NCBI RefSeq assembly: GCF_017939625.1
Contig: NZ_JAGKTC010000001.1
Location: forward strand, 248,413 to 312,412
Reading direction: 5' to 3'
DNA length: 64,000 bases
From: Pseudoxanthomonas helianthi
GTDB taxonomy: Bacteria; Pseudomonadota; Gammaproteobacteria; Xanthomonadales; Xanthomonadaceae
Position numbers and translations under genes: made by a program. Below the pieces are notes generated by a model. It did not search any database. It worked only from the letters and a program-made list of their open reading frames with translations, and had not been told where the DNA came from. Positions 40,742 to 57,279 of this stretch are shown here, piece by piece (the first letter of the stretch is position 1; the number at the start of each line of letters is the position of its first letter).

Positions 40742-40837
40742 TCGATTCCCCTTCAACTTGTGTATCGCGGCAGGCGCCCGCATTGTCTGGGCTTCCCCAC
40801 ACGACATTATGCCGGCCCGGCCGGCACGGATAGCCCC

Positions 40838-41731
40838 ATGTCCCAAGAAGCCGCCGACCTCCAGACCCGCTTCCTGCTGCCCCGCGCAGGCGTGCGTGGC
40901 GTCCATGTGCAGCTGGGGCAAAGCTGGCGGGAAATCCTCGCGCATGGCGACTACCCGGCCACGGCCCGCGAACTGCTCGGCCAAGCGACCGCGGCAGCCG
41001 CGCTGTTCACCGGGCATACCAAGGTGGGCGGTCGCCTGTCGGTGCAGTTGCGCGCCGGCGGCCCGCTGCGCACCCTGTTCGCCGAATGCACGGCGGCCGG
41101 AACCGTGCGCGGCATCGTCCAGTGCGATGAAGACGCGGAAATTCCCCGCGACCTGACCCGGCAGGGTGACGACGCCCTGCTGGCGATCACCATCGAAAAC
41201 CCCGGCCTTGATCCGCGCGAACCACAGCGCTACCAGAGCCTGGTCGCTCTGCAATCGCCGACCCTAGCCGAGGCCTTCGAGGACTATTTCCGTCAATCGG
41301 AGCAGTTGCCGACCCGCCTGCTGCTGGCCACTGGCGGCGAAAACGCGACTGGATTGATGCTGCAGAAACTCCCGGGCGACGAGGGCGATGCGGACGGCTG
41401 GAACCGGGTAGGCGCCCTGTTCGACACCCTGGCCGAGGCGGAATTGCTGGCCACGCCGGCGGCGACCCTGCTGCACCGCCTGTTCCACGAGGACGGCGTC
41501 GAGTTGTTGGGCAGCAAGCCGCTGGCGTTCGCCTGCTCGTGCTCGCGGGCCCGGGTCGAAGCCATGCTGCGGTCGCTCGGGGTCGACGAAGCCCGAGCCG
41601 CGACGGCCGACGGCGTGGCCGAGGTACGTTGTGAGTTTTGTGGGCAGCAATACCGGTTCAGTCCGGCCGAAATCGAGGAACTTTTCGTCCCCCAGCCGGT
41701 CGAAGTGACCGCTCCGGAGCGGCTGCAATAG
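40838..41731 (+). CDS. hslO: Redox-regulated chaperone Hsp33
   Basis: Hsp33 is a cytoplasmic holdase activated by oxidation and unfolding of a zinc centre. In the 297-residue protein the zinc Cys residues are CSCSRARV and CEFCGQQY near the C terminus, in the CxC/CxxC arrangement. The N-terminal body ([40 protein letters not shown]) and [22 protein letters not shown] match the family. The frame is open upstream only as a shadow of mtgA. There is no clear Shine-Dalgarno before the ATG. Confidence 0.96.
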
Positions 41732-41754
41732 GCAAAAGTGACGGGCGTCTCGAC

Positions 41755-41783
41755 TTGTTAAACAAACATAAAACGGCTAGCAT
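41755..41783 (+). promoter_or_regulatory. Putative promoter for the exported 281-residue protein
   Basis: TTGTTA (41755-41760) and TAGCAT (41778-41783) are separated by 17 bases, each with four matches to the sigma-70 consensus. The leader contains CCCCTCCCCAAAGGGG, which can fold into a hairpin. Confidence 0.5.
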
Positions 41784-41836
41784 CGGGCCCCTCCCCAAAG
41801 GGGAACCAGCGCCGTTGGCGGGGATCCAAACAAGCC

Positions 41837-42682
41837 ATGAAACCGCGTTACCTGCGACTGCCGACTGCCTTGTTGCTGGCCCTTGGGCTGGCGATGGGCG
41901 CGCATGCGCAGACCGCGAGCAAACGCCTGTCCACCCAGCTGCCGATCATCGGTAGCGATGGCAAGGTCCAGGCCGTACTCGTGCTGGAACCCACCGGCGA
42001 AGCCACGGCCGGCGCCCGCTGGCGTCTCGGCAGCAACACGCTCGATGCCGCCTTCGGGCTGGAATCAGGCGATTCGCTTGGTCTGGCCTGCGACCGCCAA
42101 ACCGGCTTCGCCAACAGCATCAGCAGCTTGGTCAGCTATTGCCACGTTGCTGCTCTCGACGACGACCCGCAGGCCAACAAGCGGGTTTCCGCCACCGCCA
42201 ACCTGACCCGCCCGGGCAGCCGCCTGGGCGTATCCGCCGGCACCGGCCGCGACACCCTGCCCGCCTGGTTGAATCCCGGCAAGCCCGCTGCACGAGTCGA
42301 ACAGAACGACCTGACGGTATTCGGCGAAAAGAACATCGGCCGTGAAGGCTTCGTCCGCATCGGCGGCGCCGTGGCCCGCGCCCGCCTGGTTCCGGCGGCC
42401 GACCTGCCCGCGATCGCCGACCGCTGGAACAGCAAGAGCCTCACCGTCGGCGGCGGTTACGGCGCCTTCAGCGCCAACATCATCGGCCGCGTCGTCGACA
42501 CCCCGGGCAAGCCGCCCTTCGAAGGCCTCGGCCTGGGCATCACCTGGCGCACCCCGTGGAGCGGCCAACTCACCGTCGGCGCCGAAAACGTCATCACCCG
42601 CGGCAAGAACCCCTTCGCCCCCAACAACGACGCCAGCGACGAAGGCACCGTGCCGTATGTGCGGTACGAGCAGGATTTGTAA
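41837..42682 (+). CDS. Exported protein of unknown function, possibly beta-rich outer-membrane
   Basis: The 281-residue product has a clear signal peptide (PTALLLALGLAMGAHAQ). The mature part alternates in a beta-strand-like way: ARWRLGSNTLDAAFGLESGD, SLTVGGGYGAFSANIIGRVV, FEGLGLGITWRTPWSGQLTV. It ends in YVRYEQDL with aromatic residues near the C terminus. Two Cys residues (in LGLACDRQ and SYCHVAA) may form a disulfide. I do not recognise a family. It has its own promoter and sits between hslO and the sulfotransferase island. Confidence 0.7.
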   Translation: MKPRYLRLPTALLLALGLAMGAHAQTASKRLSTQLPIIGSDGKVQAVLVLEPTGEATAGARWRLGSNTLDAAFGLESGDSLGLACDRQTGFANSISSLVSYCHVAALDDDPQANKRVSATANLTRPGSRLGVSAGTGRDTLPAWLNPGKPAARVEQNDLTVFGEKNIGREGFVRIGGAVARARLVPAADLPAIADRWNSKSLTVGGGYGAFSANIIGRVVDTPGKPPFEGLGLGITWRTPWSGQLTVGAENVITRGKNPFAPNNDASDEGTVPYVRYEQDL

Positions 42683-42755
42683 ATCTACTAACGGCGAGCC
42701 GACGGGCACCGCTAACTCCGGAAATGTAGGGGACGACCTGAGTCTCGGAACCGCG

Positions 42756-44336
42756 CTAGATGCAGCCCATCTCATTGAGCTTGGTACGTAGCGGACCCAG
42801 ATGCGTTGCATATTTTTTCCAACCCGAAATCCTTCTGGTATGGATCGGCTCTCGCACTTGAACGCTACTGGCGGTTGACACAGCGGACATATTCCTTTCT
42901 ATGTTCGCCATCCCTGTGCCGACTGGCAAACCGCAAAACTCTTGGATCCGTAAACTCTGGCTATGCGGCTCACACACCAGATTTTCATAGCTGACGCTCA
43001 AAAACTGCTGCGGGAATTCCGCAGATAACATGTCCGCCCATCTGGAAAAGCATCGGTAGTGAACCGCAACATCCGAAATGTCATAGCTATATTCGTAATA
43101 CCCTGGGGAAAAGTACTCTTTCAAGTTGCCGAAACAGCTGTCCATGGCATCGCGACGCAGGCAGATCATCTTCGCCTCCGGCAAGGCCTTCAGAATCAAA
43201 TGCGCGTACAGGTAGTTTGCTGGCTGCTTGTCCACTAGCCAGCGTTTGCCGCCCGCACGCCAACGGACACGATCGATATATCCTCTCCCAAGGCTGTCCA
43301 AGTCCACGCTGGCTGCCTTCCTTGCGGCTTCGACGTCCAGAAACCCCGGACAGTAATAATCGGTCTCCCATTTGAACTGCATGCGCAATTCACTGAGTTC
43401 GCCACAAGCCGCCACCAAGGGGTGATTCCCAAGTATCCGCTCAAGCAAAGTAGTTCCCGTTCGTGGCATGCCGACCACGAAGATCGGCAAGCAGTCTGTC
43501 TGGCGTTCCTGCATCTTCCGTTCCGAAATCGCTCTCGCGCCATGCCCGAGATGTTCGAAAATTAGCTCATCGCTTCTCGCCTCATGGCGTGCCATCTGCT
43601 TCTTGATTTGCATAGCCTCGCGCAGAGCTGCCCAAGCCCGGTCGACATCCCCGATGCCATCAAACTCCTTAAATAGGGCATAACCAAGTACCCCCTTGGA
43701 ACCCTGTTCCGTCGTCGCGCGTATCCGGCGCTCCAGCGCATCGATTCTTGCTTCCGCTCCCTGTCGCACACCAATGGAAGCCAAGGCTAAATACGGATAT
43801 GGATTGTCTGGCTGCAGCCTTATTGAATGTCCATAGGCGTTGACCGCCTTTTCGAAATCGCCTCTGTATTTCCAGTTATTTCCGCTGAAATACCAAAGCC
43901 TGCTCTCGTGGGGCATGCGCTCAAGGAAATAGTCCAGCCATTCACGGACTTCCCTATGCTCGTCCAACTGGGCCAATTGCGAAGCAATTTCCGCTACCAA
44001 CGACGGCCGCAGCCCCTCGTCCTTAGGGACAGTACTCAATTCTTCGATCGCGGCCCGGTAATCTCCTATTGAAATCAATCCATGAATTACTGCCAATCTC
44101 TGCGCCAACGGCAAATGCCGCAAATAGGTAGCAGAAACTCGCGCGTGATGAACCGCAAGACGGAATCTCCGCTGCGCCTGGAATACCCTGCCAAGCAACC
44201 AATGCGCCGCTGGATGTTCAGGCGCCACGGACAATATTTTCCTGCAAGCAATCTCAGCATCGCCCAGTCGGCCTGCCCGATAACCGGACTCCGCTTGTCT
44301 CCAGGCACCTTGCAGATCGACGTCCGATTGGGTCAT
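42756..44336 (-). CDS. TPR-sulfotransferase 1
   Basis: The 526-residue protein has TPR repeats in its first 240 residues (AEIACRKILSVAPEHPAAHW, FEKAVNAYGHSIRLQPDNPY) and a Sulfotransfer_3-type domain from about 280: 5'-phosphosulfate loop PRTGTTLLERIL (291-302), GE at 312-313, DKQPAN (369-374), 3'-phosphate motif RRDAMDSCF (394-402) and TASSVQVREP near 488. It has no signal peptide, consistent with cytoplasmic PAPS use. It follows TonB receptor 1, after a strong hairpin ending 36 bases before the ATG. G+C is visibly low (a sampled 60-base line is 50%), unlike the window. The substrate is unknown; a protein or peptide is possible. Confidence 0.85.
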   Translation of the reverse strand: MTQSDVDLQGAWRQAESGYRAGRLGDAEIACRKILSVAPEHPAAHWLLGRVFQAQRRFRLAVHHARVSATYLRHLPLAQRLAVIHGLISIGDYRAAIEELSTVPKDEGLRPSLVAEIASQLAQLDEHREVREWLDYFLERMPHESRLWYFSGNNWKYRGDFEKAVNAYGHSIRLQPDNPYPYLALASIGVRQGAEARIDALERRIRATTEQGSKGVLGYALFKEFDGIGDVDRAWAALREAMQIKKQMARHEARSDELIFEHLGHGARAISERKMQERQTDCLPIFVVGMPRTGTTLLERILGNHPLVAACGELSELRMQFKWETDYYCPGFLDVEAARKAASVDLDSLGRGYIDRVRWRAGGKRWLVDKQPANYLYAHLILKALPEAKMICLRRDAMDSCFGNLKEYFSPGYYEYSYDISDVAVHYRCFSRWADMLSAEFPQQFLSVSYENLVCEPHSQSLRIQEFCGLPVGTGMANIERNMSAVSTASSVQVREPIHTRRISGWKKYATHLGPLRTKLNEMGCI

Positions 44337-44371
44337 GTCCGAATTATCAACCGACTCCTCGATCGAGAAAA

Positions 44372-44399
44372 GAAAAGGCCGCCCAAAGGCGGCCTTTTC
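44372..44399 (-). terminator. Strong GC hairpin between receptor 1 and sulfotransferase 1
   Basis: GAAAAGGCCGCC and GGCGGCCTTTTC form a perfect 12-bp stem with a 4-base loop; on the minus strand it ends in TTTTC followed by TTTTC. It lies 29 bases after the receptor stop and 35 bases before the sulfotransferase ATG, so it may end most transcription or cut down expression of the downstream gene. Confidence 0.75.
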
Positions 44400-44428
44400 A
44401 GCCGAGCTAAAGTGGCTACACCCGTGGC

Positions 44429-47401
44429 TTACCAGGTGTAACGCACGGTGAAGCGGACATAACGCGGGGCCTGGTAGTTGACATCGTTCAGGAAATCCGG
44501 ATTGACCCGATAGAAGTAGTTGCCGTCGTCATCGACGGTACGGGACAGCTCACCGGCCTCGTTCCGTTCCGTCACCTTGTGCGAATTGAACACATTAAAG
44601 ACGGAAGCGTTGAACTCTAGGTGCTTGTTCGCCCAATTAGGCACATAGCTCAAGCCCATGTCGACCCGGTACTGCCACGGGGTACGCCCGAAGCTGCCAC
44701 GGGCCTTCAGCTCCCGAACACCATCAGCATAGATACCATCCTTGGTGAGGCAATAGAAACTGGAAGCCGAGTATGCCTCGAGTTCGGATGCATCATCCGG
44801 ATCGAGCGCTTCGAGCGGGATATAGCCTTGGCAGCTGACGGGACGACCCGATTGCACCAGCAAATTGCCGCTGACCATCAGCTCGCTGGTGATATCGTAC
44901 GTACCGAAAAGCTTGAACGTATGCCGACGATCGTTCGGCAGATAGCCGAAAGCGCCATCTTCGAACATCGCGTGGTCGAAGTCCTGGGTCAGGCCAGCGT
45001 CGGTCTGCTCCAGGCTGGAGTTGACATAACCCTCCGAATTGCCCTTGCTATGCGCAAAGGTATAGGAGCCCTGCAGGTACAGTTTGTCCTGCTTCGGGCG
45101 CTCCACTGTGAATTCGAGCGCATTGTACGAACGGCGCTCCTTCGGCAGGTTCAGATAGCCTTCGTTAGGTACCTTAACCACGGTCAGATTGCCATCGTTG
45201 TTCAGGTCCATGGCGATATGGACGTCCTTGCCCGGATTGATGACCATGCAACCGGCCATCGTGCTCGGATCGAAGTCGTCGTAGCCATTATCCGCTGCCC
45301 AGCGAGCGAACGCGGCGTGGGTGCAATAGTCTTCCATGCCGTTCTTGAGCTTACGGTAGATCCCCTTGACACCGACGGTCCAAGAATCCATCGCCCATTG
45401 CGCGCCCAGGATGAACTCATCTTGGTACATCGGCTTCAGTTCGGTATCAGCAACCGTCTTGGGGTTGGGCGGGGTCAAGCTGCCATTGACGGACGGGCCC
45501 GACAGCAGCGGCCCCAACGTGACCGGCGAGCCATCCGCGTTCCAACCACCGCTATACGAGTAGAACGAAGTCGTCAGCGCTTCGAATCCTGAACCGCGAA
45601 TATTCGTGTTCGAGGCCACGGGGATGTAATAACGACCGGCGTTACCATAGACCTTAAAGGTCGAATCGCCATTGACGTCCCATGAGAAGCCAAGGCGAGG
45701 AGCAATCAAATTGTCTGCCTTGACAAAGCTCTCACCCAAGCCATTCTTGTTATCGAACGATTCCGAACGCAAGCCCAGATAGAAGAGCCAGTTATCAGTT
45801 GCGCGCCAAGTATCTTCCAGATAGTAAGCCGTATTCTGCACTTCATACTTGCCGCTGGCCGTCTGGTACGTGCGGACGCGGACGCGGTTACCGGGGTAGT
45901 AACGATAGTAAACACCACCGGAGTACTCGAGACCGGCGTTCGTCGAAGTGAACTTCTCGGTATCGTAGCCGAACCGCAGCGTGTGATCGCCAATCAGCCA
46001 CTCAGCGTCAGCGCGATAGGCCTTGCGCTTGTCGGTATTCGGACCAAACTTGCGATCCGCCGGGGTGAACTCGTTCGGATTCCAGCAACCGATGTAATTC
46101 AGATTGAGACCATCGGTGTTGTCGTAGGCCGCTGGGCAATCGGTACCCTCAGGCGCCGTCGTACGCCAATCGCGAACATTCTTCAGCTGTCCCGCAAGCA
46201 GCGACAGCGTGAAGTTGTCCGTCAAGTAGCCCGTGTATTTGCCGATATAGACATCACCGCCGTTTTCGTATTCGGCATCATCGGACAACTCATCGTGAGT
46301 CTTCGCGTAATCCGTGTTGCTGAAATAGTGCTTCTCGCGCGTCTTAGTTTTGTTACGGATGCCGGTGAATTCGAGCAGATGATTATCCGTGATGTTCCAG
46401 TCGAGCTTGACCAGGCCCGTTGGTGTCGTATCGGTGTCACGCTCGCTGGTATTGCGACCGTACAGATCGGTGGAACTGTCCTGACCCTGCACCAAACCGA
46501 AGAAGAACAGCCGATCCTTGATGATTGGGCCGCCGCCGTACACGTTGTATTCCAGCGTTTCGCTTTCATTGCCGGAACGGAAAACCGAAATCTCGCCCGG
46601 CACTCGTGACTTCACATCACGACCATGTTCGCGCAGGCCCGAGGGTTCCCAGTACACACTGGCGCCGCCCTTCCATTCATTGGTGCCGCGCTTGGTCACT
46701 AGGTTGATCACGCCGCCCAGAGAGCGACCATATTCGGCTCCGTAACCGCCCGTCTTGATCTGCTGCGAACCAATCGCATCGAATGGCAGATCGGCGAACG
46801 ACAGGAAGTTGTAAATGTTGGTGACATCGAATCCATTGATGTAGTAGCCGTTTTCCGCCACCGAGGAACCGCCGAACGAGGCAAGATTGCCAAAGCCGGT
46901 GTCACCCTGCACAGTGCCCGGAGCCAGCAGAGCCACGTTGGTGATGTCACGGGCGACGGGCAGCGCCTGGATTTGCTCCTGGCTGAAAACCGTCGTCGAT
47001 TCAACCGAGGACACGTCAATCGGATTAATACGACTACCGCTCACCGTAATGGCGTCGAGTGTGGTCGCACCGCCAGAACCCGTAGCCTCGAAGGCCACTT
47101 GGGTACCAGTGCCCACGGCAACCGTAACCTCACGAGTAACGCCGCCCGACGTTACCTTGTAATGTCCAGGGGGGAGCTGGGATGCCGTGAAGCGGCCGTC
47201 CGAGCCAGCGGAAATCTCGCGCGAGGTGCCCGTATCGGTATTTTCAATGGTGACCGTAGCACCAGCTCCAGTCTTGCCGAACAGCGAACCGACTGCACTT
47301 TGCGCATGGATGCTGCCCGCGAAGCACATACCGAGCGCAACGCTCAATGCAGTGCGACGCACACCTTTCGAAAAGTATTTGGAACCCTTGTGGGTAGTCA
47401 T
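44429..47401 (-). CDS. Oar-like TonB-dependent receptor 1
   Basis: The 990-residue outer-membrane protein has a long signal peptide (SVALGMCFAGSIHAQ), a carboxypeptidase-regulatory-like domain (about 35-110), a TonB-box-like LDAITVSG, a plug (IDVSSVESTTVFSQEQIQAL, FGGSSVAENGYYINGFDVTN, GGYGAEYGRSLGGVINLVTK) and a 22-strand-type barrel ending YVRFTVRYTW. Oar-like receptors import glycans or peptides or take part in protein export; the ligand is unknown. The ATG at 47401 has GAGAGAG five bases upstream. Its signal peptide and leader are nearly identical to receptor 2. Sulfotransferase 1 follows downstream. Confidence 0.9.
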   Translation of the reverse strand: MTTHKGSKYFSKGVRRTALSVALGMCFAGSIHAQSAVGSLFGKTGAGATVTIENTDTGTSREISAGSDGRFTASQLPPGHYKVTSGGVTREVTVAVGTGTQVAFEATGSGGATTLDAITVSGSRINPIDVSSVESTTVFSQEQIQALPVARDITNVALLAPGTVQGDTGFGNLASFGGSSVAENGYYINGFDVTNIYNFLSFADLPFDAIGSQQIKTGGYGAEYGRSLGGVINLVTKRGTNEWKGGASVYWEPSGLREHGRDVKSRVPGEISVFRSGNESETLEYNVYGGGPIIKDRLFFFGLVQGQDSSTDLYGRNTSERDTDTTPTGLVKLDWNITDNHLLEFTGIRNKTKTREKHYFSNTDYAKTHDELSDDAEYENGGDVYIGKYTGYLTDNFTLSLLAGQLKNVRDWRTTAPEGTDCPAAYDNTDGLNLNYIGCWNPNEFTPADRKFGPNTDKRKAYRADAEWLIGDHTLRFGYDTEKFTSTNAGLEYSGGVYYRYYPGNRVRVRTYQTASGKYEVQNTAYYLEDTWRATDNWLFYLGLRSESFDNKNGLGESFVKADNLIAPRLGFSWDVNGDSTFKVYGNAGRYYIPVASNTNIRGSGFEALTTSFYSYSGGWNADGSPVTLGPLLSGPSVNGSLTPPNPKTVADTELKPMYQDEFILGAQWAMDSWTVGVKGIYRKLKNGMEDYCTHAAFARWAADNGYDDFDPSTMAGCMVINPGKDVHIAMDLNNDGNLTVVKVPNEGYLNLPKERRSYNALEFTVERPKQDKLYLQGSYTFAHSKGNSEGYVNSSLEQTDAGLTQDFDHAMFEDGAFGYLPNDRRHTFKLFGTYDITSELMVSGNLLVQSGRPVSCQGYIPLEALDPDDASELEAYSASSFYCLTKDGIYADGVRELKARGSFGRTPWQYRVDMGLSYVPNWANKHLEFNASVFNVFNSHKVTERNEAGELSRTVDDDGNYFYRVNPDFLNDVNYQAPRYVRFTVRYTW

Positions 47402-47510
47402 TGATGCTCTCTCTCTCATATAGGTCTGGATACAACCAAGAACGACCGGGTGCAGAACCTAGTCAACTGAACAGGCGCGACGCCATAACACCTGCTTCTC
47501 CGAAGGATAA

Positions 47511-47523
47511 CGTAAATTTTACG
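47511..47523. promoter_or_regulatory. Palindromic block shared by both receptor promoters
   Basis: CGTAAATTTTACG is a palindrome around its central base, 110 bases before the receptor 1 ATG. The receptor 2 copy (54205-54217) differs in one base. On the minus strand it is followed by GTTATNCT in both cases, which may be a -10, so the palindrome would overlap the promoter. Confidence 0.55.
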
Positions 47524-47640
47524 GTCATGGGAAGGGTTCTCGGCCAGTCTCGGCCCGTCTGATCACTGCAATTTCAATGGGTTAACCAAATTGCAAGCCC
47601 CTTGAGGGGCTGATCGACCGAAAAAAATTTTGTTACGTCG

Positions 47641-47669
47641 GCTAAGTAGTTGCAATTGCTACAGTTTCA
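47641..47669. promoter_or_regulatory. Conserved 29-base block, copy 1
   Basis: The block holds TTGCAATTGCTAC and begins GCTAAGTAG. It matches 54357-54385 at 26 of 29 positions although the surrounding sequence differs. It lies between the sulfotransferase 2 stop and receptor 1. It may be a binding site or a transcript end. Confidence 0.5.
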
Positions 47670-47725
47670 GGCAGCAACAATCTCACCGGAGTCTCCGACG
47701 ATCCACGCTCGCGAGTACAACTCGG

Positions 47726-49294
47726 CTAGGAATGCTGCACCGCAGCTAAAATTCGCGACAACGGTTCCAGTTGTTGCGCATAGGGCACCCATTTCGGGCG
47801 TGGTTGCGTAACGATACCCTCGCGAACTTGCACGGCACTGGCCGTCACAACGCCTCGCTGCCGTGGTGAAATGTCCAGCATCGCCATGTCGAATGGAAGC
47901 CCGCAGAAATCGCAAACCCGGCGGAGTTCCCTTTCGGGATGCCGGGTCAACTCTGAATAGTCCACGTCCAGCACACGCTCCGGGAATGTCGCGTGCCAAT
48001 GCCGCATCAGTTCCTGATAGTGGCGGTAAAAGTTAGCCAGATCCGCTTGGTCGTAGCTGTACGGATTCGCATCCGAGAATAGCTCGCGCAGGTTAGAGAA
48101 GCACACCTCCATTGGATCGCGAACCATGTGCAATATCTTTGCGTGCGGCAAGGCCTGGCAAATGAATCCGATATTCAGGAAATTGGATGGCAGCTTGTCG
48201 GTAAAGAAGCGCTCTCCTTGCAGGCGCCACCCCATGCCCAACAGGTAAGTCCTACCCACCTCGGAGAAATCCGAGCCTTGCGCCCGCCGGATTAACTCCC
48301 GATCGATGACACCAGAGCAGTGGCGATCAGTTGCCATTCGCATTGCCGCCGTGAAGTCGTACAACTCCCCCATTGCCCTCAATTGCTTCGCGCCACTCAG
48401 CATCTGCTCAAGCAGGGTGGTCCCTGAGCGGTGCATGCCAACTATGAAGATCGGAGTCAACTCATCAGCACTCTCTTCCAGAACGCGCGAAGGTGCGTCC
48501 ACGGGAAACGCATGCAGCGCCCGGAAGATCGCCTGCGTTTCGGATCGATCATAGGCCAATTGAGCACGCTTGGCCCTGCAACCGATCATCAGCGCTTCCC
48601 ACGCATCCGCATGCTCGCCCAGATCGTCGAGCGCTTTGTGCAGGGCGAAGCCGAGCAGCGCCAAATCCGCCGGAGAACGCCCAGGGCGCAGGAGTTGCCG
48701 GCGGATCTGCTCGACATGGTTGTCGGCTGCGGTCTGCTTACCGAGCGCCGTGAGTAGCCAGTAACCCTGCGCGATCTCGGGTGCGCGCTTCAGCGCGCGC
48801 AGCACATCGACCCTAGCTTCCTCGAATCTGCCCAAGTACATGAGCACGTGCGCTCGCGCCAGCAACGTGGTTGGGAAGTCCGGGTCGGCTCGCTTGGCTT
48901 CGTCGAGAAACTCGATCGCCTGGCCCGGCAAGTTGGCATAGCTCAGTTGCGCGCCCAGCTTGATCAGCATCGGAATCGGAATGCCGGACATAGGCAGGAG
49001 TCGCGCAATGCAGTCCTGCATCTCCTCGATGGCATTGAAAGTGCGCAGCCGCGGAATCAACTCGGACAGGACTTTCGGCGCCCGCACGCCTGTCGCATGC
49101 GCACGCAAGGCGTATTCCCGTGCCAATCGGTAATGACCGGCCAGCGAATGGACATACGACAACTGCACGAGGGTTCCTGCGTCACCCGGTGCCGCTTGCA
49201 ATGCACGTTCGTAGCAGTCGATCGCGCGAGCCCAGTTCTTGGCGGCCGCGAACCCTTCGGCCTGCTGTAACAGCGGCCACACCGCGGAGATCAT
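47726..49294 (-). CDS. TPR-sulfotransferase 2
   Basis: The 522-residue protein has N-terminal TPR units (ARAIDCYERALQAAPGDAGT, AIEFLDEAKRADPDFPTTLL) up to about 240 and a Sulfotransfer_3-type domain: HRSGTTLLEQML (288-299), GE at 309-310, DKLPSN (366-371), VRDPMEVCFS (391-400) and TASAVQVRE at 484-492. The ATG at 49294 overlaps the sulfotransferase 3 stop by 4 bases, so the two are translationally coupled. It is probably cytoplasmic. It shares the motif set but little overall sequence with the other two, suggesting distinct substrates or a heteromeric enzyme. Confidence 0.86.
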   Translation of the reverse strand: MISAVWPLLQQAEGFAAAKNWARAIDCYERALQAAPGDAGTLVQLSYVHSLAGHYRLAREYALRAHATGVRAPKVLSELIPRLRTFNAIEEMQDCIARLLPMSGIPIPMLIKLGAQLSYANLPGQAIEFLDEAKRADPDFPTTLLARAHVLMYLGRFEEARVDVLRALKRAPEIAQGYWLLTALGKQTAADNHVEQIRRQLLRPGRSPADLALLGFALHKALDDLGEHADAWEALMIGCRAKRAQLAYDRSETQAIFRALHAFPVDAPSRVLEESADELTPIFIVGMHRSGTTLLEQMLSGAKQLRAMGELYDFTAAMRMATDRHCSGVIDRELIRRAQGSDFSEVGRTYLLGMGWRLQGERFFTDKLPSNFLNIGFICQALPHAKILHMVRDPMEVCFSNLRELFSDANPYSYDQADLANFYRHYQELMRHWHATFPERVLDVDYSELTRHPERELRRVCDFCGLPFDMAMLDISPRQRGVVTASAVQVREGIVTQPRPKWVPYAQQLEPLSRILAAVQHS

Positions 49295-50877
49295 TCTGGT
49301 AGGCCTAGGCTGTCGAAGATCGGCGAAAGCCACGGCGCATACCGCCGCCATGCCCCTACCCCTCTTTGATGCACGGGCTCCCGAACTTGAGCGCTGCTCG
49401 CCGTGGAAACCGGCGCGACATTGGTCGTGATGTCCGCGAAAGCCGCATTGCGCGGCAGGCCGATGAAATCCTGCACGCATTCGAGCGTAGCGCCCGGATC
49501 GACGGCCAGCGCTTCGTATTCAACGATCTTCACCATGCCCGGAAGGCGCGCATGCCAATGACGCATCCAGCTCTGCGCCAACTTCCAGTGCGCGGCCAGA
49601 TGATCGAGCCTATAACTGTATGGATAGCTCGCGCCGTGGAACAATTCCTTGAAACCCGAGAAGCAAGCATCCCTGCCGTTGCGGGAGAGGCACAGGATTC
49701 GGGCTTGCGGCAGCGCGCGGGCGATCAGCGGGATGCTGAACAGGTTGCGCGGATTCTTGTCGATAACGAACACCGCCTGAGGTTCCACTTGACGAAGCCG
49801 CTGCAAGTAGCGCAGGCCTGCTCTCTGCATGTCGATACGTGAAAGCGGACGTGTTTCCCGTTCTTCTAGCAAGGTGCCGAAGAAACTGTTAGAAACTTCG
49901 CTGACTGCCATCGACAGGTCGTTCCGCTCACCAGCCGACGACACGCCCGGAATATTGCCCAGCATCCGGTCTAGCAAGGTCGTTCCAGTTCGCGGCATCC
50001 CCACCACGAAAACCGGAATCGGCATGCCCGGAACCGACTTGCCCTCCGCGGGCGGGAGTGGATCGCCATCCATCAGTCCCTCGATTTGACGCCGCTCCGC
50101 CTCCGGATCGTAGCGGAATTTCTGCGCCATGATTGCGGCGCCTTCACCCAGCGCCGCCCAGGCGTGCTCGACGTCCCCAGCCGCATCCAGTTCATGGAAC
50201 AATGCATAGTAGAGATGCGCCTGTTCCTCACTCGTTGCCCCATGCGCACTTTGGGCTCGGCGGATGCGATCCACCCTTTCCAAGGGCGATCTCGCCCTGC
50301 CAAGGGTCGCCAGCGACCAATGCGCGTCTGCCAGTTCCGGATTTATTTCCAACGTCGCCTCATACGCTTCCCGCGCATCGTCCAACCTCCCCAGGAAGCG
50401 AAAGACATTGGCGCGAGCGTAGTGCAGCAAAGCGTTTGGCGGCACGCGCGGCAATGCGTGGCCGATGAACCTGAGCGCATCTTCATAGCGACCGGCAAGC
50501 CATAGGTGTTGGGCCAGCATCGGCGACTGGTTGAGTACGTGGGGGTTGTTCCAGTCTGCGGTTAGGATTACCGACGCGACCTCGGCATCCTCAGCGAAAT
50601 CGAGCAAGCGCAAGCTCACGAAACTGATCTGCCTGTAACGGTTGGCGAACCGCACGGAGTCCGATGCACGCATGACATAAGAACGCGCCATGTGGAAATC
50701 TCCGTCGCGTTGCGCATGACGTGAAAGCCGCAACAACGCAGGCACGTGATGCGCATCTAACACCAGGATTGCCCTGTATTCCGAGCGCGCGGACGCGATA
50801 TCGCGATTGGATTCGAATTGCTGCGCGCGTTCCCACCGCAAATCGAGTTCTTGATGCGTTGGGGTTATCAGATTCAT
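49291..50877 (-). CDS. TPR-sulfotransferase 3
   Basis: The 528-residue protein has TPR repeats (ALLHYARANVFRFLGRLDDA, AREAYEATLEINPELADAHW) and a sulfotransferase domain with PRTGTTLLDRML (295-306), AGE at 315-317, DKNPRN (373-378), SRNGRDACFS (398-407) and STASSAQVREP at 491-501. In place of the common RDP it has RNG, a variation of the 3'-phosphate motif. It follows TonB receptor 2 by 89 bases, separated by a GC hairpin, and precedes sulfotransferase 2. The substrate is unknown. Confidence 0.86.
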   Translation of the reverse strand: MNLITPTHQELDLRWERAQQFESNRDIASARSEYRAILVLDAHHVPALLRLSRHAQRDGDFHMARSYVMRASDSVRFANRYRQISFVSLRLLDFAEDAEVASVILTADWNNPHVLNQSPMLAQHLWLAGRYEDALRFIGHALPRVPPNALLHYARANVFRFLGRLDDAREAYEATLEINPELADAHWSLATLGRARSPLERVDRIRRAQSAHGATSEEQAHLYYALFHELDAAGDVEHAWAALGEGAAIMAQKFRYDPEAERRQIEGLMDGDPLPPAEGKSVPGMPIPVFVVGMPRTGTTLLDRMLGNIPGVSSAGERNDLSMAVSEVSNSFFGTLLEERETRPLSRIDMQRAGLRYLQRLRQVEPQAVFVIDKNPRNLFSIPLIARALPQARILCLSRNGRDACFSGFKELFHGASYPYSYRLDHLAAHWKLAQSWMRHWHARLPGMVKIVEYEALAVDPGATLECVQDFIGLPRNAAFADITTNVAPVSTASSAQVREPVHQRGVGAWRRYAPWLSPIFDSLGLPE

Positions 50878-50915
50878 AGCTCAAGCATAAGGCCTGGAAG
50901 GCCATCGCGAAACGG

Positions 50916-50941
50916 GAACGGCCGCCCTGCGGCGGCCGTTC
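50916..50941 (-). terminator. GC hairpin between receptor 2 and sulfotransferase 3
   Basis: GAACGGCCGCC and GGCGGCCGTTC form a perfect 11-bp stem with a 4-base loop, 25 bases after the receptor 2 stop. On the minus strand it lacks a long T run (CCCGTTTCG follows). The stem core GGCCGCC matches the hairpin after receptor 1, so it is a conserved feature of the module and may attenuate rather than fully stop transcription. Confidence 0.65.
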
Positions 50942-50966
50942 GGGGACTTCCAAAGCGACGTATCGA

Positions 50967-53900
50967 TCAGAAGTCGTACTGCACCATGAAACGCACCGAA
51001 CGCGGAGCCTGGTAGGCGCGCGGCAACAGGTACGTGCTCAATGGATTGCCGGTAGCGGAATCCTCAGCCACATCGCTAACCGCGATGACCTTCTGCGAAT
51101 TGAACACGTTGAACACGTCCACCTTGAACTGCAGGCCCGGCGCAAACGAAGGGCGATATGCCGCGTTCAAGTCGACCGTGGTGGTCCAAGGCAGGCGACC
51201 TGCCGTGCCACGCGGCACGGCATGTACGGTCGCATCGTTCGAAGCGCCATCCGGCGAGTTGCTGCAACGCATGAAGCCAGAACCGTAGGGATGCGGACTG
51301 TAATGGTTATTGCCGGTCACCGGATCGGGCAGGGCCGGGTCCAGATCCAGTACGCCGAGACAGTTGTAGGGACGCCCGGACTGCACCAGCAAGTTGGCAC
51401 CCAACGACCACTGGTCGTTGAACTGGTAGCTGCCAAATACCTTCAGCGCGTGGCGACGGTCGTTGGGCAGGTAGCCGAAGGTATCGACCGTCAGCTCCTT
51501 GTAGTCGAAGTCCTGGGTGGTATTGGTATCAGACTGGCCGATATCCGACTTCACGCCGCCTTCGGTATTACCCTTGTTCGCCGACCAGGTATACGACGCC
51601 TGGAAGAAGAACTTGTCCCAATTGCCGTCCAGGAACAACTCCAGTGCCTTGTAGCTGCGCTTGGCGTCGGGGCTTAGACGATCTCCCTTGACTGTGTACG
51701 TCGTGTAATGCCCATCGCCATTAAGGTCGGTGACCAAAACCGCATCCTTACCCGGGTTGAACAGGCGGCAGTACGGGAAGCCCGGGTTGGGCACTGTGTA
51801 CGACAGACCGTCGGCATCAGCGAGTTCGGTAATCGCGGTGTAGTCGCAGTTGTCGTCGATGGCTGCCTTAAGCTTGCGGTAAATTGCGCGAGCGCCCAGG
51901 TTCACATGATCTGTAATTGCACTCTGGAAACCAAGGATATATTCATCCTGGTACATCGGCTCAAGATTCTTGGAAGCGATGGTCAGCGGGTCGTGCGCCT
52001 TCCCATCTTCGCCGTTGATCAGGTTCAACGGGTTCAGCGGACCGGTCAGTATCGGCGCGCCAGTCACCGGATCCACACCCGAGAAGCGATTGTTGTTGCT
52101 ACGCTGGAAGATCGATGCGCTGGAACCGCGCACGGCCACGCTGGGGGTTAACGGCAAGGCATAACGACCGGCATTGCCGTAGACCTTGAAGGTCGAATCG
52201 CCATTCACGTCCCAGGAGAAGCCGAGGCGGGGGCCGAACTGATTATCGATCTTGACGAAGGCGCGGCCGTCGGCGCCCAGGTTCTCGAAGGTATCCCAGC
52301 GCAAGCCCAGATAAGCCAGGAAATTGTCGGTAACCTTCCAACTGTCCTCGATATAGAAGGCGCGCTGCTTGACTTCGATGGTCGTCCCTCGTGCCGTGGT
52401 CTGACGGCGCACGACGTCGAACTCATCGCCCGTGTTAGCCTTGCCGTCTGGGCCATTGTTGGTCGAATAACGCCACAACCAGCCGCCGGCGTTGGCTTCG
52501 CCTGCCACCGATTCGTAATTGTCGATGTCGACGCCAAAGCGCAGCTGGTGAGAGCCCAGGATCCACTCCGCGTCGATACGGTACTGGTCGCGGGTGTCCT
52601 TATTGTTGTCAGCCTGCAGCAGGGCACCGTTGGTCAGGTTGCAGAAGCTGCCATATGGCCCGGTCATTGCCTTACGGTAGCCGGGGCGCACATCGATAAT
52701 AACCGGGCATCCGCCCAGCGAAGTAGTGCCGGTGATGCTTCGGGTATACGCGGTGTTGATATCGCCGTTGTAGCGCACTTCCGAACCATCCGGGTTGCGA
52801 AGGTGCTGCTGGCGCTTGAACTCGCCATGGCCCGCCAATGCGGTCAGAGTGAAGTTGTCGGTCAGATAACCGGTGTACTTCAACACGAAGTTTTGGCCGC
52901 CCTGGGTATCGAACAACGTGCCCGCGTAGGCCTTGCGATCCAGCTGGCCCGGCGTGTTGGCATAGACCTTGGTATCCGTCTTCTGCTCATCGGAAAACGC
53001 GGTCAGTTCCAGCTTGTTGTTGTCGTTGATGTTCCAGTCGAACTTGGCCAGCCAGGTCGGATTCTTGACCTTGTTGTTGATGTTTTGCAGCGCATCCTTG
53101 TTGCCCCAGGTATCTTGCTCGGTATTGCCGTAGGACAGCAACGCATAGGCGAACAGGCGATCCTTGATCAATGCGCCGCTGGCCCAGACGCTCGTGATGA
53201 GCTGATCTTCGGCGTCCTTGCTGTTGTCTTCCTCGATCTTTCCGAAATCGCTCGGCGACAACGGATTGGAATACTTGACGTTCTTGACCTTCTCGCGCAG
53301 CGAGTCGGGTGCCCAGAACACGTTCGCACCGGCCTTGAATTCATTGGTACCGCGCTTGGTGATCTGGTTGACCACGCCGCCGAGCGAACGGCCGAATTCC
53401 GCGCCATAGCCGCCGGTCTTGACCTGCTGCTCGGCAATGGCCTCGAAGGGCACCTTGGAGAAGTTCAGGCTGCGGAACGAGTTGGTGACGTTGAAACCGT
53501 TGATGTAGTACTGGTTCTCGGCCACCGACGAACCGCCGAACGACGCCAGGTTGCCGAACGCGGCGTCGCCACGCACGGTGCCCGGGGCCAGCAGCGCCAC
53601 CGACGTGGTGTCGCGCGGTACCGGAATGCGGGCGATCTGCTCGGACGTCAGCACGGTGGTCGATTCGACCGACGACACGTCGATCGGGTTGACCAGTTGG
53701 CTGGCGGTGACGACGACGCTGTCGAGCGTCTTGGCGTCACCACCGGCCGCGGCCGCGAAGCTCACCGGCGTACCGGTACCCACACTCACGCCGACCGCCT
53801 CACGAACGACGGTACTGCCATCGGCGCGACGCAAAGTCACGTTGTACCTGCCGGGCTGCAGCGCGGAAATGCGATATGCGCCATCGGCACCCACCACGAC

Positions 53901-54089
53901 TTCACGGCGGAAACCGGTGGCCGGGTTTTCGACCACCACGGTCTCTCCCGACGACGCCTGACCGAAAACCGAACCGGTCGTATTGGACTGAGCCTGCACG
54001 CCACCCGCGACGCACATACCAAGCGCAACGCTCAACGCAGTGCGTTTGGCACCTTTCGAAAAGTATTTGGAACCCTTATGGGTAGTCAT
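50967..54089 (-). CDS. Oar-like TonB-dependent receptor 2
   Basis: The 1040-residue outer-membrane receptor begins MTTHKGSKYFSKGAKRTALS, almost identical to receptor 1, with a signal peptide ending VQAQ. A carboxypeptidase-regulatory-like domain (GETVVVENPATGFRREVVVG, about 45-110) precedes the plug (LVNPIDVSSVESTTVLTSEQ, SSVAENQYYINGFNVTN, GGYGAEFGRSLGGVVNQITK) and a large barrel ending RSVRFMVQYDF. The extracellular loops differ strongly from receptor 1, so the ligands probably differ. The ATG has GAGAGAG upstream; a longer frame to 54209 covers only the leader. Sulfotransferases 3 and 2 follow. Confidence 0.9.
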   Translation of the reverse strand: MTTHKGSKYFSKGAKRTALSVALGMCVAGGVQAQSNTTGSVFGQASSGETVVVENPATGFRREVVVGADGAYRISALQPGRYNVTLRRADGSTVVREAVGVSVGTGTPVSFAAAAGGDAKTLDSVVVTASQLVNPIDVSSVESTTVLTSEQIARIPVPRDTTSVALLAPGTVRGDAAFGNLASFGGSSVAENQYYINGFNVTNSFRSLNFSKVPFEAIAEQQVKTGGYGAEFGRSLGGVVNQITKRGTNEFKAGANVFWAPDSLREKVKNVKYSNPLSPSDFGKIEEDNSKDAEDQLITSVWASGALIKDRLFAYALLSYGNTEQDTWGNKDALQNINNKVKNPTWLAKFDWNINDNNKLELTAFSDEQKTDTKVYANTPGQLDRKAYAGTLFDTQGGQNFVLKYTGYLTDNFTLTALAGHGEFKRQQHLRNPDGSEVRYNGDINTAYTRSITGTTSLGGCPVIIDVRPGYRKAMTGPYGSFCNLTNGALLQADNNKDTRDQYRIDAEWILGSHQLRFGVDIDNYESVAGEANAGGWLWRYSTNNGPDGKANTGDEFDVVRRQTTARGTTIEVKQRAFYIEDSWKVTDNFLAYLGLRWDTFENLGADGRAFVKIDNQFGPRLGFSWDVNGDSTFKVYGNAGRYALPLTPSVAVRGSSASIFQRSNNNRFSGVDPVTGAPILTGPLNPLNLINGEDGKAHDPLTIASKNLEPMYQDEYILGFQSAITDHVNLGARAIYRKLKAAIDDNCDYTAITELADADGLSYTVPNPGFPYCRLFNPGKDAVLVTDLNGDGHYTTYTVKGDRLSPDAKRSYKALELFLDGNWDKFFFQASYTWSANKGNTEGGVKSDIGQSDTNTTQDFDYKELTVDTFGYLPNDRRHALKVFGSYQFNDQWSLGANLLVQSGRPYNCLGVLDLDPALPDPVTGNNHYSPHPYGSGFMRCSNSPDGASNDATVHAVPRGTAGRLPWTTTVDLNAAYRPSFAPGLQFKVDVFNVFNSQKVIAVSDVAEDSATGNPLSTYLLPRAYQAPRSVRFMVQYDF

Positions 54090-54204
54090 TGATGCTCTCT
54101 CTCGGTGGAATAAGGATCTGGATACGGCCAATGGTTGCGTGCTAAATCCAAGCCAAGGCAACGACAGGCGGTTCGCCACGTACGCCTGTTCGACTTGAGC
54201 ATAA

Positions 54205-54217
54205 CGCAAATTTTACG
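54205..54217. promoter_or_regulatory. Palindromic block, receptor 2 copy
   Basis: CGCAAATTTTACG, one mismatch from the perfect palindrome before receptor 1, 116 bases from the ATG. Flanks are also shared (ATAACG on one side, GG on the other). Confidence 0.55.
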
Positions 54218-54356
54218 GCAGGGGAAAAGACTTCCATGCCAATTCTTGCGAATCACGACTCCTGCAATATCAACAAGTTAAGCAACAGAATTTCGGTTAC
54301 GCCTTGACGATGCGAGAGGCCTGCGGTCCTGGGGCGGTGATCCGATGTCGGCTCAA

Positions 54357-54385
54357 GCTAAGTTGTTGCAATTGCTACGGTTTCG
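54357..54385. promoter_or_regulatory. Conserved 29-base block, copy 2
   Basis: GCTAAGTTGTTGCAATTGCT is followed by ACGGTTTCG, matching 47641-47669 with three differences. The distance to the receptor start (about 270 bases) is similar in both copies (about 240). Confidence 0.5.
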
Positions 54386-54492
54386 GATGGAATGATCTTG
54401 CACCACGCGAAAGCAAAGGGGCGCCATGCTCGAACACAGCGCCCGTACATGACCGTATGGATTCGGCTTTTGCCCACGCCGGGGAGTCGCCT

Positions 54493-55407
54493 TTATTCCA
54501 AGCTCAATGTTGCACTGCCAGAAAAAGTCTCGATGCTGATTTCGCCGTCGCCGTTGCCGTAACGGGTGTTGAAGCTGGCGCCGGGGCCGTACTTGGGGCG
54601 CTCGATGGTGGCGCCGGGGGCCTTGAGGTCGCCGCTGAAGGTTTCGGCGGTGACGCGGGCGGAAAGGTTCTTGGGTAGCGTCAGGGTCAGGTCGCCGCTG
54701 ACCGTTTCCAGGTGGATGCGGCCATTGGTGTACAGCCCAGTGCGCAAGGTGGCGTCGCCGCTGACGGTGGTAGCCGACAGTTCGCGCAATCTTTCGTCCT
54801 TGACGGCAACGTCGATGTTGCCGCTGACGGTTTCAGTGGAAACTTCGCCATTCATGCGTCCGCGCAAGGTGATGTCGCCGCTCACGCTGTCGACGGTCAC
54901 GCTGGGGCTGTTGACGGTCAGGTTGACCGAACCGCTGACGCTGTCGACGCTGACTTCTTTCGGCGCGGCGGCCACCACGACATCGCCGCTGACGTTGTCG
55001 ATCGACAAACTCGACGGCGCCACGCCGGTCACGTGGACATTGGCGGAAACCGAATCGATCTCCAGATCGGCACGCAGCGGAACCATCAGCTGCAGGTCGG
55101 TCGGGCCGAACTTGCGGCCGCCCGCCCACCCTTCGCTCTGCGGCGTCTTCACTTTCACTTCGAGGTGGTCGTCGTCGCCTTCGATGATCAGCTTCTCGAC
55201 GCCATCGCCGAGCGTGCCGCCGATCTTCACTTCGGGACGATCCCAGGCGCGTACCACGATGCTGCCCTTGACGTTGGAGATGTCCACGCGGCCGGTCGGC
55301 GACAAGGGGCGGGTCTGGTCGATCGGCGTGCCGGCGAAGGCCGGGACGGACAGGGACAGTGCGGCAGCGAAAGCCGTGGCGAATGCGGTGCGTGTGATGG
55401 CGGTCAT
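54493..55407 (-). CDS. DUF4097 beta-strand-repeat envelope protein
   Basis: The 304-residue protein has a signal peptide (TAFAAALSLSVPAFAG) and then a run of short repeats with the pattern V-(S/T)G-x-(I/V/A/L) (SVSGSVNLTV, SVSGDITLRG, TVSGNIDVAV, TVSGDATLRT, TVSGDLTLTL, TFSGDLKAPG). This is the right-handed beta-helix-like DUF4097 fold. Function is unknown; homologues often accompany sigma/anti-sigma genes, as here, and may be the envelope output or sensor. It lies 11 bases downstream of the anti-sigma-like gene. Confidence 0.87.
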   Translation of the reverse strand: MTAITRTAFATAFAAALSLSVPAFAGTPIDQTRPLSPTGRVDISNVKGSIVVRAWDRPEVKIGGTLGDGVEKLIIEGDDDHLEVKVKTPQSEGWAGGRKFGPTDLQLMVPLRADLEIDSVSANVHVTGVAPSSLSIDNVSGDVVVAAAPKEVSVDSVSGSVNLTVNSPSVTVDSVSGDITLRGRMNGEVSTETVSGNIDVAVKDERLRELSATTVSGDATLRTGLYTNGRIHLETVSGDLTLTLPKNLSARVTAETFSGDLKAPGATIERPKYGPGASFNTRYGNGDGEISIETFSGSATLSLE

Positions 55408-55418
55408 GGCGGTATTCC

Positions 55419-55907
55419 TCAGGTCAGGGCGGCGCGCTGGGTCAGTTCCAGACGACGGGCATAGGTGCGGCGCAGCTGCTCGAGCAGGAAGCGCGCGTTG
55501 GGGTCGTGTTCCAGCGCGACCAGGATCTTGGCGGCGCTGCTATCGAGGTCTCGCAGCGCCGGGGCGTATGCGGAACTTGAACGCGTCTGCGGCATGGATT
55601 GCAGCGCGCCCTGGTATTCGCGGGTAAGCGCGCCGGCTTCCTGGCGCAACAGCGGATCGGTGGAAACGGAACCTGGCACCAAGCCGCCTTGCCAGACGAC
55701 GCCGACTGCAAGCAGCAAGGAAGCTGCCATCGCGGCAGGCGCGAACCAGCGCTTGCCGCGCCTTGTCGTCCGCATCGGCGCGTCCTGAGGCGTCGCCGCG
55801 ATGCGCGCGGCGATGTCGGGCCACAGGTCGCGCTGCGGCGGCACATCCTTGCGCAAGGCGCGGAGCTGCCAGCGCAGGGTATCGTCGTTGATGTTCGTTT
55901 CGTTCAT
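55419..55907 (-). CDS. Putative anti-sigma factor, single-pass membrane protein
   Basis: The 162-residue protein has an N-terminal cytoplasmic part with DDTLRWQLRALRKDVPPQRD and LWPDIAARIAATPQ, resembling the anti-sigma pattern but without a zinc-binding HxxxCxxC. One membrane helix lies at about 57-75 (FAPAAMAASLLLAVGVVWQG), followed by a periplasmic helical region. Its start overlaps the sigma factor stop by 4 bases, which strongly supports a regulator pair. No enzyme motif is seen. Confidence 0.75.
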   Translation of the reverse strand: MNETNINDDTLRWQLRALRKDVPPQRDLWPDIAARIAATPQDAPMRTTRRGKRWFAPAAMAASLLLAVGVVWQGGLVPGSVSTDPLLRQEAGALTREYQGALQSMPQTRSSSAYAPALRDLDSSAAKILVALEHDPNARFLLEQLRRTYARRLELTQRAALT

Positions 55908-56494
55908 GCTTCGTCTCCCAACCGTCCGCGCAACAACTGCCGTGCGCGGTGCAACTGCGCTTTCGAACTGCCCACCGCCATGCCGAGTTCGGCGGCGATT
56001 TCCTCGTGCTTCCAGCCTTCCACGTCGTGCAGCACCAGCACGGCGCGCGCGCGTGGCGGCAAGGTGGCCACCGCGCGCTCCAGGTCCAGTGACAACGCCG
56101 TGGCCTGTCCCGCCGAATCGGCCATGCCGACATCGTCCAGTGCGTCTTCGTCGTCGTCGAAACGCGGGCCGCCGCGGCGGCTGCGCAATTCCATCAGCGC
56201 GGTATTGACCGCGAGCCGATGCAGCCAGGTGGAGAAGGCGCTTTCGAAACGGAACTTCGGCAGCGCCTGCCAGGCACGGACGAACGCTTCCTGGGTCAGA
56301 TCCTCGGCGCGCACGCCCTGCCCGCCGACCAGTCGCGAGATCACGCCATGCACGCGGCCGGCGTGGCGGCGGTAGATCGAGGCGAAGGCATCGCCGTCGC
56401 CGCCGGCCGCCGAACGCACCAGCGCGGCGTCCGCTTCCGCGGCGGCTTCGGCGGTGGTGTCCAGGCTCAGTTCGATCACGGCTGCATTCAACAT
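55904..56494 (-). CDS. ECF-type RNA polymerase sigma factor
   Basis: The 196-residue protein has region 2 (FASIYRRHAGRVHGVISRLV, AEDLTQEAFVRAWQALPKF, FSTWLHRLAVNTALMELR) and region 4 (ATLPPRARAVLVLHDVEGWK, HEEIAAELGMAVGSSKAQLH). GAAGGATT before the ATG is a good ribosome site. It heads a sigma / anti-sigma-like / DUF4097 operon that probably responds to an envelope signal. Target promoters are not identified; the TonB receptors next door are candidates by position only. Confidence 0.93.
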   Translation of the reverse strand: MLNAAVIELSLDTTAEAAAEADAALVRSAAGGDGDAFASIYRRHAGRVHGVISRLVGGQGVRAEDLTQEAFVRAWQALPKFRFESAFSTWLHRLAVNTALMELRSRRGGPRFDDDEDALDDVGMADSAGQATALSLDLERAVATLPPRARAVLVLHDVEGWKHEEIAAELGMAVGSSKAQLHRARQLLRGRLGDEA

Positions 56495-56570
56495 AATCCT
56501 TCGGATGCCAGGGGGGCGCGGAAGGTTTAACTCCGTGAATGCCGGGTGGAGAACCCGACGCCCCTCCGGG

Positions 56571-57170: not shown

Positions 57171-57181
57171 GTGACGCATTT

Positions 57182-57198
57182 AACCATACGCAATGGTT
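57182..57198. promoter_or_regulatory. Putative TetR operator 1
   Basis: AACCATACGCAATGGTT has 6-base arms around a 5-base centre and lies 12 bases upstream of the TetR ATG. On the minus strand TATGGT within it can act as the TetR -10, so binding would give autoregulation. Confidence 0.6.
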
Positions 57199-57279
57199 TG
57201 TGTTGGTACGTTTGTTGCGCCGCAACAGCAAGTTCAACCAAATCAACAAGTTAGGCGCGAATTTCCCTCCAGAAACCGA

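Follow-up and report, generated by a model that had tools for sequence, protein, structure and literature searches.

TPR-sulfotransferases encoded beside TonB-dependent receptors in Pseudoxanthomonas helianthi and its relatives, and their proposed role in receptor tyrosine sulfation

Why should sulfotransferase genes stand behind the genes of outer-membrane receptors? The question is raised by five minus-strand genes at positions 42756-54089 of the stretch of Pseudoxanthomonas helianthi DNA analysed here (64,000 nucleotides, hereafter the window), which in the order of transcription encode receptor A, the sulfotransferases ST1 and ST2, receptor B and the sulfotransferase ST3. Both receptors are Oar-like, with an N-terminal carboxypeptidase-regulatory domain and a TonB barrel; CarboxypepD_reg, OMP_b-brl_4 and the barrel were found in both by Pfam, while the Plug reached E <= 1e-3 in receptor A only. 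Each of the three enzymes has a PF13469 (Sulfotransfer_3) domain behind several tetratricopeptide repeats (TPRs), which places it in the TPR-sulfotransferase family. Pfam and the coordinates confirmed all five genes of the first-pass annotation, in which two TonB receptors are each followed by one or more same-strand TPR-sulfotransferase genes, with a 4-base overlap between the start of ST2 and the stop of ST1. Here, we describe the pairing of such genes within and beyond the family of the source genome and the predicted likeness of the enzymes to tyrosylprotein sulfotransferases (TPSTs). We propose, with a probability of about 0.5, that the TPR-sulfotransferases add sulfate to outer-loop tyrosines of the partner receptor before its export.

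Pairing of receptor and sulfotransferase genes

The neighbourhood survey covered 40 genomes of the source genome's family (39 genera, the source genome included), of which 38 have PF13469. Regions were taken for strong PF13469 rows (at least 112 bits, with an open frame of about 490 amino acids or more), leaving aside the weaker rows and one strong row (G002:C12:173499). When tandem sulfotransferase genes are skipped, a receptor is the next gene for 61 of 101 TPR-sulfotransferases (97 from other genomes and 4 from the source genome), against 12 of 492 genes, 7 on the same strand, located at least four genes away in the same regions; these receptor counts come from a first-pass search and may be too low. 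The 61 paired enzymes lie on the same strand as the receptor, which is upstream (28) or downstream (13), or in convergent (16) or divergent (4) orientation. The first-pass annotation had expected the pairing to exceed its background, and it does so both in this survey and in the genome counts given below (28/28 and 34/34). The source genome itself has 5 PF13469 and 44 PF00593 matches. TPR-sulfotransferases account for four of the five PF13469 matches, with ST1-ST3 identified by Pfam and ST4 by its alignment and length. Each of the four adjoins a TonB receptor: ST1-ST3 within the window, and ST4 (L026) immediately upstream of a receptor that is not Oar-like. The Oar-like receptor that had been put forward as the partner is not the sole partner, since ST4-type enzymes pair with another receptor class.

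A second set comprised 80 named loci chosen from the best matches, which biases it to relatives; some repeat survey genomes, and receptors were called by similarity to seed receptors. A same-strand receptor stands directly beside the sulfotransferase run in 46 of these loci and a receptor of other orientation in 4, and 30 have none (3 at a contig edge). For background genes in this set the count is 6 of 353, of which 4 have the receptor on the same strand. By class, the same-strand receptor is found in 38/54 loci of Gammaproteobacteria, 6/12 of Alphaproteobacteria, 1/5 of Betaproteobacteria and 1/9 of others or unassigned, so that the pairs occur in Alpha- and Betaproteobacteria as well. The pairing of the two genes is firm. 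In the open-licence literature of PubMed Central (PMC), we found no report of TPR-sulfotransferases paired with TonB receptors.

Pairs were also counted in 120 genomes of the family (44 genera); each genome was taken as an independent case, even though members of a genus share presence by descent. A-type receptors (59 rows less five B-type rows of 45-46% identity, giving 54) are found in 28 genomes and ST2 relatives in 31, and all 28 hold both. In 28/28, ST2 lies on the same strand behind the A-type receptor, at a distance of 83-125 bp in 6 cases and of 1.6-3.1 kb, which leaves space for an ST1 gene, in 22. Counted by copy, 40 of the 54 A-type receptors have ST2 within 12 kb downstream. In the three ST2 genomes that lack an A-type receptor, the gene stands behind Oar-like receptors of about 35% identity (G039, L038), is 41% identical to ST2 and lies beside an oxygenase and a non-Oar receptor (G032, L111), or is a relative 44% identical to ST2 (G114). 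The receptor of ST4 occurs in 34/120 genomes and ST4 in 35/120. All 36 copies of this receptor are directly behind an ST4 copy, and the sole ST4 without a receptor match, in G114, covers residues 10-466 of 673. Both receptor kinds are therefore found only in genomes with the matching enzyme gene, at least one copy being adjacent or close.

The tree of the 101 enzymes follows the partners. All 11 rows of the ST2 clade are behind Oar-like receptors, 11 of the 12 rows of the ST1/ST3 clade are beside them, and the 10 rows of the ST4 clade are all upstream of another receptor class. The label "behind Oar" changes 4 times on the tree, compared with 19.3 times in shuffles, and L116_5509, the tree sister of ST3, likewise adjoins a B-type receptor. 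Distances among A-type receptors correlate with those among their ST1 (r 0.67, 18 units, p 1e-4) and ST2 partners (r 0.72, 24 units, p 1e-4), and the random matching of receptor and enzyme trees that would have spoken against a unit was not seen; with species relatedness uncontrolled, these correlations show only non-random matching.

A predicted TPST-like enzyme

The model of ST1 (predicted local distance difference test, pLDDT, 93.8) has a TPST as its top match in the Protein Data Bank, and among solved structures the catalytic domain is nearest to TPST. The catalytic residues of TPST2 are R78, E99 and K158 (PMC5562738, excerpt). The TPST-type Arg, Glu (21 residues on) and Lys are all present in ST1 as R296, E317 and K374, which are invariant in 46/46 rows, and Arg and Glu have the same 21-residue spacing in ST2 and ST3. 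The genome has an APS kinase gene, so the cell can probably make the donor 3'-phosphoadenosine 5'-phosphosulfate (PAPS). As a prediction from these models and residues, the likeness of the enzyme to TPSTs is firm. The family is large: 2,333 of 7,999 candidates scored are ST2 relatives at E <= 1e-3.

The N-terminal half of the ST1 model consists of TPR helices from residue 6 onward. TPR superhelices are common. Among the Foldseek matches, O-GlcNAc transferase and SPINDLY likewise join a TPR superhelix to a transferase domain; the whole-length root mean square deviation is poor and the transferase domains are not comparable, so that the TPR part alone compares. The animal enzymes TPST1 and TPST2 are Golgi proteins with a type II membrane anchor (PMC5562738 and PMC6094398, excerpts), whereas the sulfotransferases described here have the N-terminal TPR superhelix, show by eye no hydrophobic anchor in their sequences and adjoin single receptor genes. 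Because of this different topology, and with an activity that is predicted, we do not file them as TPSTs.

In AIDA-I/Aah and TibA/TibC, an autotransporter heptosyltransferase is encoded beside the surface protein that it modifies. The likeness to the present locus lies in a dedicated modifying enzyme beside a surface protein, and the difference is that autotransporter glycosylation takes the place of TonB-receptor sulfation. By this analogy, the module would be an autotransporter-like, dedicated modification by the neighbouring enzyme, with TPST-type chemistry. The raxX-raxSTAB locus of Xanthomonas has a dedicated exporter. It also has a 60-residue precursor, and what it shares with the activity proposed here is that, through RaxST and RaxX, a bacterium sulfates a tyrosine of a gene-encoded product (PMC6637879, excerpt). 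No RaxX-like precursor or transporter gene was found in the run 42756-54089 or, of the flanks, in the two next genes scanned.

The substrate of the sulfotransferases

No signal peptide was seen on the enzyme by eye, and its substrate would therefore be met in the cytosol; we favour the receptor chain, not yet exported, as that substrate. In the proposed mechanism, the TPR-sulfotransferase would stay in the cytosol, where its superhelix would hold the unfolded receptor chain while tyrosines in an acidic context are sulfated from PAPS. After sulfation, export through the Sec and BAM machineries would bring the receptor to the surface, and sulfotyrosine exposed there would alter the binding of a ligand, partner or attacker.

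The first-pass annotation had offered two possibilities, namely that enzyme and receptor act on the same ligand or peptide, or that the receptor itself is modified. The gene content leans to the second. The gaps from A to ST1 and from B to ST3 are just 89 and 92 bp (that from ST1 to ST2 is minus 4), the 324 bp before B contain nothing beyond small frames (21-78 amino acids, and one of 110 mostly inside ST2), none with further support as a separate gene for a sulfated peptide, and the five-gene run has no biosynthesis or inner-membrane transport genes. These features make it unlikely that the enzyme sulfates the ligand of the receptor or another exported product, such as a cell-made peptide or a secondary metabolite, which the receptor would then take up or export. 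Such a reading has precedents. Some methanobactin operons encode a TonB transporter (MbnT) and a sulfotransferase (MbnS) to which the peptide is assigned as substrate, together with MbnA/B/C (PMC3621798, excerpt), but in the run 42756-54089, which holds receptors and sulfotransferases only, and in the two next flanking genes scanned, there is no MbnA precursor, MbnB or MbnC. The other precedent is Oar of Myxococcus xanthus, a receptor of the same type (some relatives of A are named "Oar protein" in databases), which is needed for PopC secretion (PMC6434023, excerpt).

For sulfation of the receptor itself, our hypothesis places the sites on tyrosines, and the sequences offer candidates. Tyr750 and Tyr863 of receptor A are placed in long loops of its model (moderate, pLDDT 74.7), and the strand order suggests that these loops are extracellular. 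Both tyrosines are kept in A-type receptors and are rare in unpaired Oar-like ones (Table 1; 42 of the 60 A-type rows are database proteins, taken without their gene neighbourhoods). Tyrosine takes 6 of 51 A-specific columns and 22 of 390 conserved columns, an excess that is suggestive only. The loop around Tyr692 of receptor B looks comparable to the Tyr750 loop of A. In ten surveyed receptors paired with ST4, there is a loop DY[SN]DYxxWYD (nine exact, one shorter by one residue). The loop is conserved in Rhodanobacter and Dyella and partly so in Novosphingobium and in one genome of the Caulobacteraceae; the sequence that follows it is variable. Of 79 paired receptors, 26 contain the shorter motif DYxDY; of 93 others, a single one does, and its gene is the second upstream of a sulfotransferase pair. 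This count left out receptors above 1150 or below 600 amino acids, among them one ST4 partner (L114). As a separate observation, A-type receptors at L214-L219, with no sulfotransferase in the fetched stretch and an ST2 pair elsewhere in the genome, keep both Tyr750 and Tyr863.

Several points weigh against tyrosine sulfation of the partner receptor. Polyketide-synthase sulfotransferases are among the matches of ST2, and the match with the best E-value is one of these. DYxDY is not exclusive to paired receptors. From the matches listed for DY[SNT]DY, 21 places outside known pairs were chosen and 20 fetched, and at least 6 of the 20 are in receptors with no sulfotransferase in the fetched 7 kb (unlabelled places may be undetected receptors); one such receptor is in G001, a genome without any PF13469 match. 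According to a literature excerpt, the two main determinants of Km in human TPSTs are Asp at -1 and an acidic residue at +1; DYxDY has the former, but mostly not the latter. An overall tyrosine enrichment was not found (4.5% in paired A-type receptors, n=14, compared with 5.4% in unpaired Oar-like ones, n=41). With families collapsed (14 paired, 18 unpaired), tyrosine in an acidic context is modestly higher in paired receptors (1.22 vs 0.81, p 0.027), and the phenylalanine control gives 1.33 vs 1.10 (p 0.23). Two further points come from the gene neighbourhoods: 40 of the 101 TPR-sulfotransferases have no receptor neighbour, and for 14 of the 54 A-type copies the 12 kb downstream contain no ST2, all of them in genomes that hold the pair elsewhere.

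Weak tyrosine statistics after family collapse would fit an enzyme that sulfates its partner on serine or threonine, or at a site other than acidic tyrosines, and the gene pairs fit that idea equally. We regard it as improbable, since the closest fold and the catalytic residues are those of tyrosine-specific enzymes. The enzymes and A-type copies that lack a partner nearby fit another view, in which a surface glycan, lipid or other component is sulfated and the genes stand together through common regulation or an inherited arrangement, with no direct action on the receptor. One chromosomal site, flanked by XOO1806 (NCBIfam) with hslO (by eye) on one side and TetR/acyl-CoA dehydrogenase (by eye) on the other, recurs in 26 of the 40 genomes, and adjacency is therefore partly inherited gene order. 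Yet the ST4 pair is located away from this site. All of the 120 genomes except one have both of its genes or neither, and G089 and G109 have two copies, each time as a pair; moreover, the listed glycan and small-molecule sulfotransferases reach Z of at most 13.3 in the structure comparison. A glycan or lipid substrate is accordingly quite improbable in our estimate.

If tyrosines of the receptors are sulfated, this would be protein-tyrosine sulfation of bacterial outer-membrane proteins by TPST-like enzymes, a new way to decorate the surface. A large enzyme family would thereby gain a function, with test pairs at hand, and the ligand, phage and bacteriocin specificity of TonB receptors would be read differently. 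Sulfation is nearly isobaric with phosphorylation (PMC11894665, excerpt), and receptor sulfation may for this reason have been overlooked.

Features of the locus and of sister loci

The coordinates of the features are given in Table 1. The length of receptor B is counted from the ATG that matches that of receptor A, the listed frame opening at 47419.

Table 1 Features of the window (positions of the window) and oxygenase genes of sister loci.
Feature	Position	Strand	Description
Receptor A	50967..54089	(-)	Oar-like TonB-dependent receptor, 1040 aa; Pfam PF13620, PF07715, PF25183, PF00593
ST1	49291..50877	(-)	TPR-sulfotransferase, 528 aa; PF13469 E 7e-37 plus TPR
ST2	47726..49294	(-)	TPR-sulfotransferase, 522 aa; PF13469 E 7e-48 plus TPR
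Receptor B	44429..47401	(-)	Oar-like TonB-dependent receptor, 990 aa; PF13620, PF25183, PF00593 on the 996-aa frame
ST3	42756..44336	(-)	TPR-sulfotransferase, 526 aa; PF13469 E 2e-39 plus TPR
Codon of ST1 Glu317	49927..49929	(-)	matches TPST catalytic Glu, 21 residues after Arg296; invariant in 46/46 rows
Codon of receptor A Tyr750 (DDNCDYTAI)	51840..51842	(-)	candidate sulfation site; Tyr in 97% of 60 A-type rows, 2-3% of 41 unpaired Oar-like
Codon of receptor A Tyr863 (TQDFDYKEL)	51501..51503	(-)	candidate sulfation site; Tyr in 100% of 60 A-type rows, 10% of 41 unpaired Oar-like
Codon of receptor B Tyr692 (GMEDYC)	45326..45328	(-)	candidate site, from sequence only
Terminator-like hairpin between receptor B and ST3	44372..44399	(-)	12 pairs; terminator scan
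Shared leader of receptor A	53989..54103	(-)	87% over 115 nt to 47301-47415
Shared leader of receptor B	47301..47415	(-)	87% over 115 nt to 53989-54103
Upstream element CGTAAAATTTGCGTTAT before A	54198..54218	(-)	21 nt, 90% to 47504-47524
Upstream element CGTAAAATTTACGTTAT before B	47504..47524	(-)	21 nt, 90% to 54198-54218
TTGCAATTGC element upstream of both receptors	54357-54384 and 47641-47668		28 nt, 93% identical
Oxygenase/hydroxylase genes at sister loci	L111:8752-9420, L111:10997-11593, L086:10179-10745, L091:11087-13776		L086 by similarity only

Receptors A and B are 44% identical over their full length. A duplicated unit with a diversified binding part had been suggested earlier; ST1 has only 31% identity to ST2 and 30% to ST3, so a duplication of the whole unit, if any, is old. 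The near-identical start of the two receptors was borne out, with agreement in 26 of the first 30 residues and in the DNA around the starts (Table 1). It is no mark of the unit: Oar-like receptors without a sulfotransferase in the same genome (C4:4196 and C2:432k, for example) bear a very similar signal peptide, and leaders resemble one another within a genome, as if homogenised. On both grounds, we rejected the idea that the leader tags a receptor for sorting or for recognition by the sulfotransferase. Upstream of both receptors there is a common element, CGTAAAATTT[AG]CGTTAT, of which a similar form is found in L126 and L137; the elements before A and B are a possible common promoter or operator.

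The GC content of the five-gene stretch (42756-54300) is 54-61%, compared with about 65-69% on both flanks, and the GC drop of its sulfotransferase genes (0.096) is the largest of 82 sulfotransferase loci compared. This copy of the module may therefore have been imported into the conserved chromosomal site. The hairpin between receptor B and ST3 perhaps holds the level of the enzyme under that of the receptor; overall, the terminator scan gave 11 terminator-like sites compared with 12.1 in shuffles. The promoter scan gave 1 site compared with 5.1 in shuffles, and no RNA family reached its gathering threshold at 40000-58000.

Human AspH is a TPR enzyme that acts on proteins. At sister loci, receptors and sulfotransferases stand beside 2-oxoglutarate-Fe(II) (2OG-Fe(II)) oxygenases of two kinds (PF13759 and PF13640) and a protein that joins TPRs to an aspartyl/asparaginyl hydroxylase domain (PF05118). 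Searches with phmmer from six examples, over the survey and the named loci, found 12 of 14 PF13759-type, 11 of 15 PF13640-type and 5 of 14 TPR-hydroxylase genes to be direct neighbours of a sulfotransferase or receptor. We tentatively suggest that proteobacteria may have a receptor-modification code, written by dedicated cytosolic TPR enzymes (the sulfotransferases and, at sister loci, the 2OG-Fe(II) and Asp/Asn hydroxylases), in which the pattern of sulfotyrosine displayed on receptor loops at the surface sets the ligands, phages or neighbours that a receptor meets.

At L079 (G029:C1:209700-229500), the receptor genes before a sulfotransferase pair are fragmented (one stop, split frames), and both sulfotransferases are open. 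TPR-sulfotransferases without a receptor stand beside large, secreted-looking proteins (leader by eye) at L074:6363-8732 and L093:5103-7403, and these proteins might be other substrates. Upstream of receptor A, on the same strand (54493-56494), lie genes for a DUF4097 protein (Pfam) and for anti-sigma-like and extracytoplasmic function (ECF) sigma-like proteins (by eye), and gene sets of similar size recur beside sulfotransferases in L041, L098 and L126. At L035:9532-11067 of the source genome, a gene that by eye resembles a flavin-dependent tryptophan halogenase is found behind a TonB receptor.
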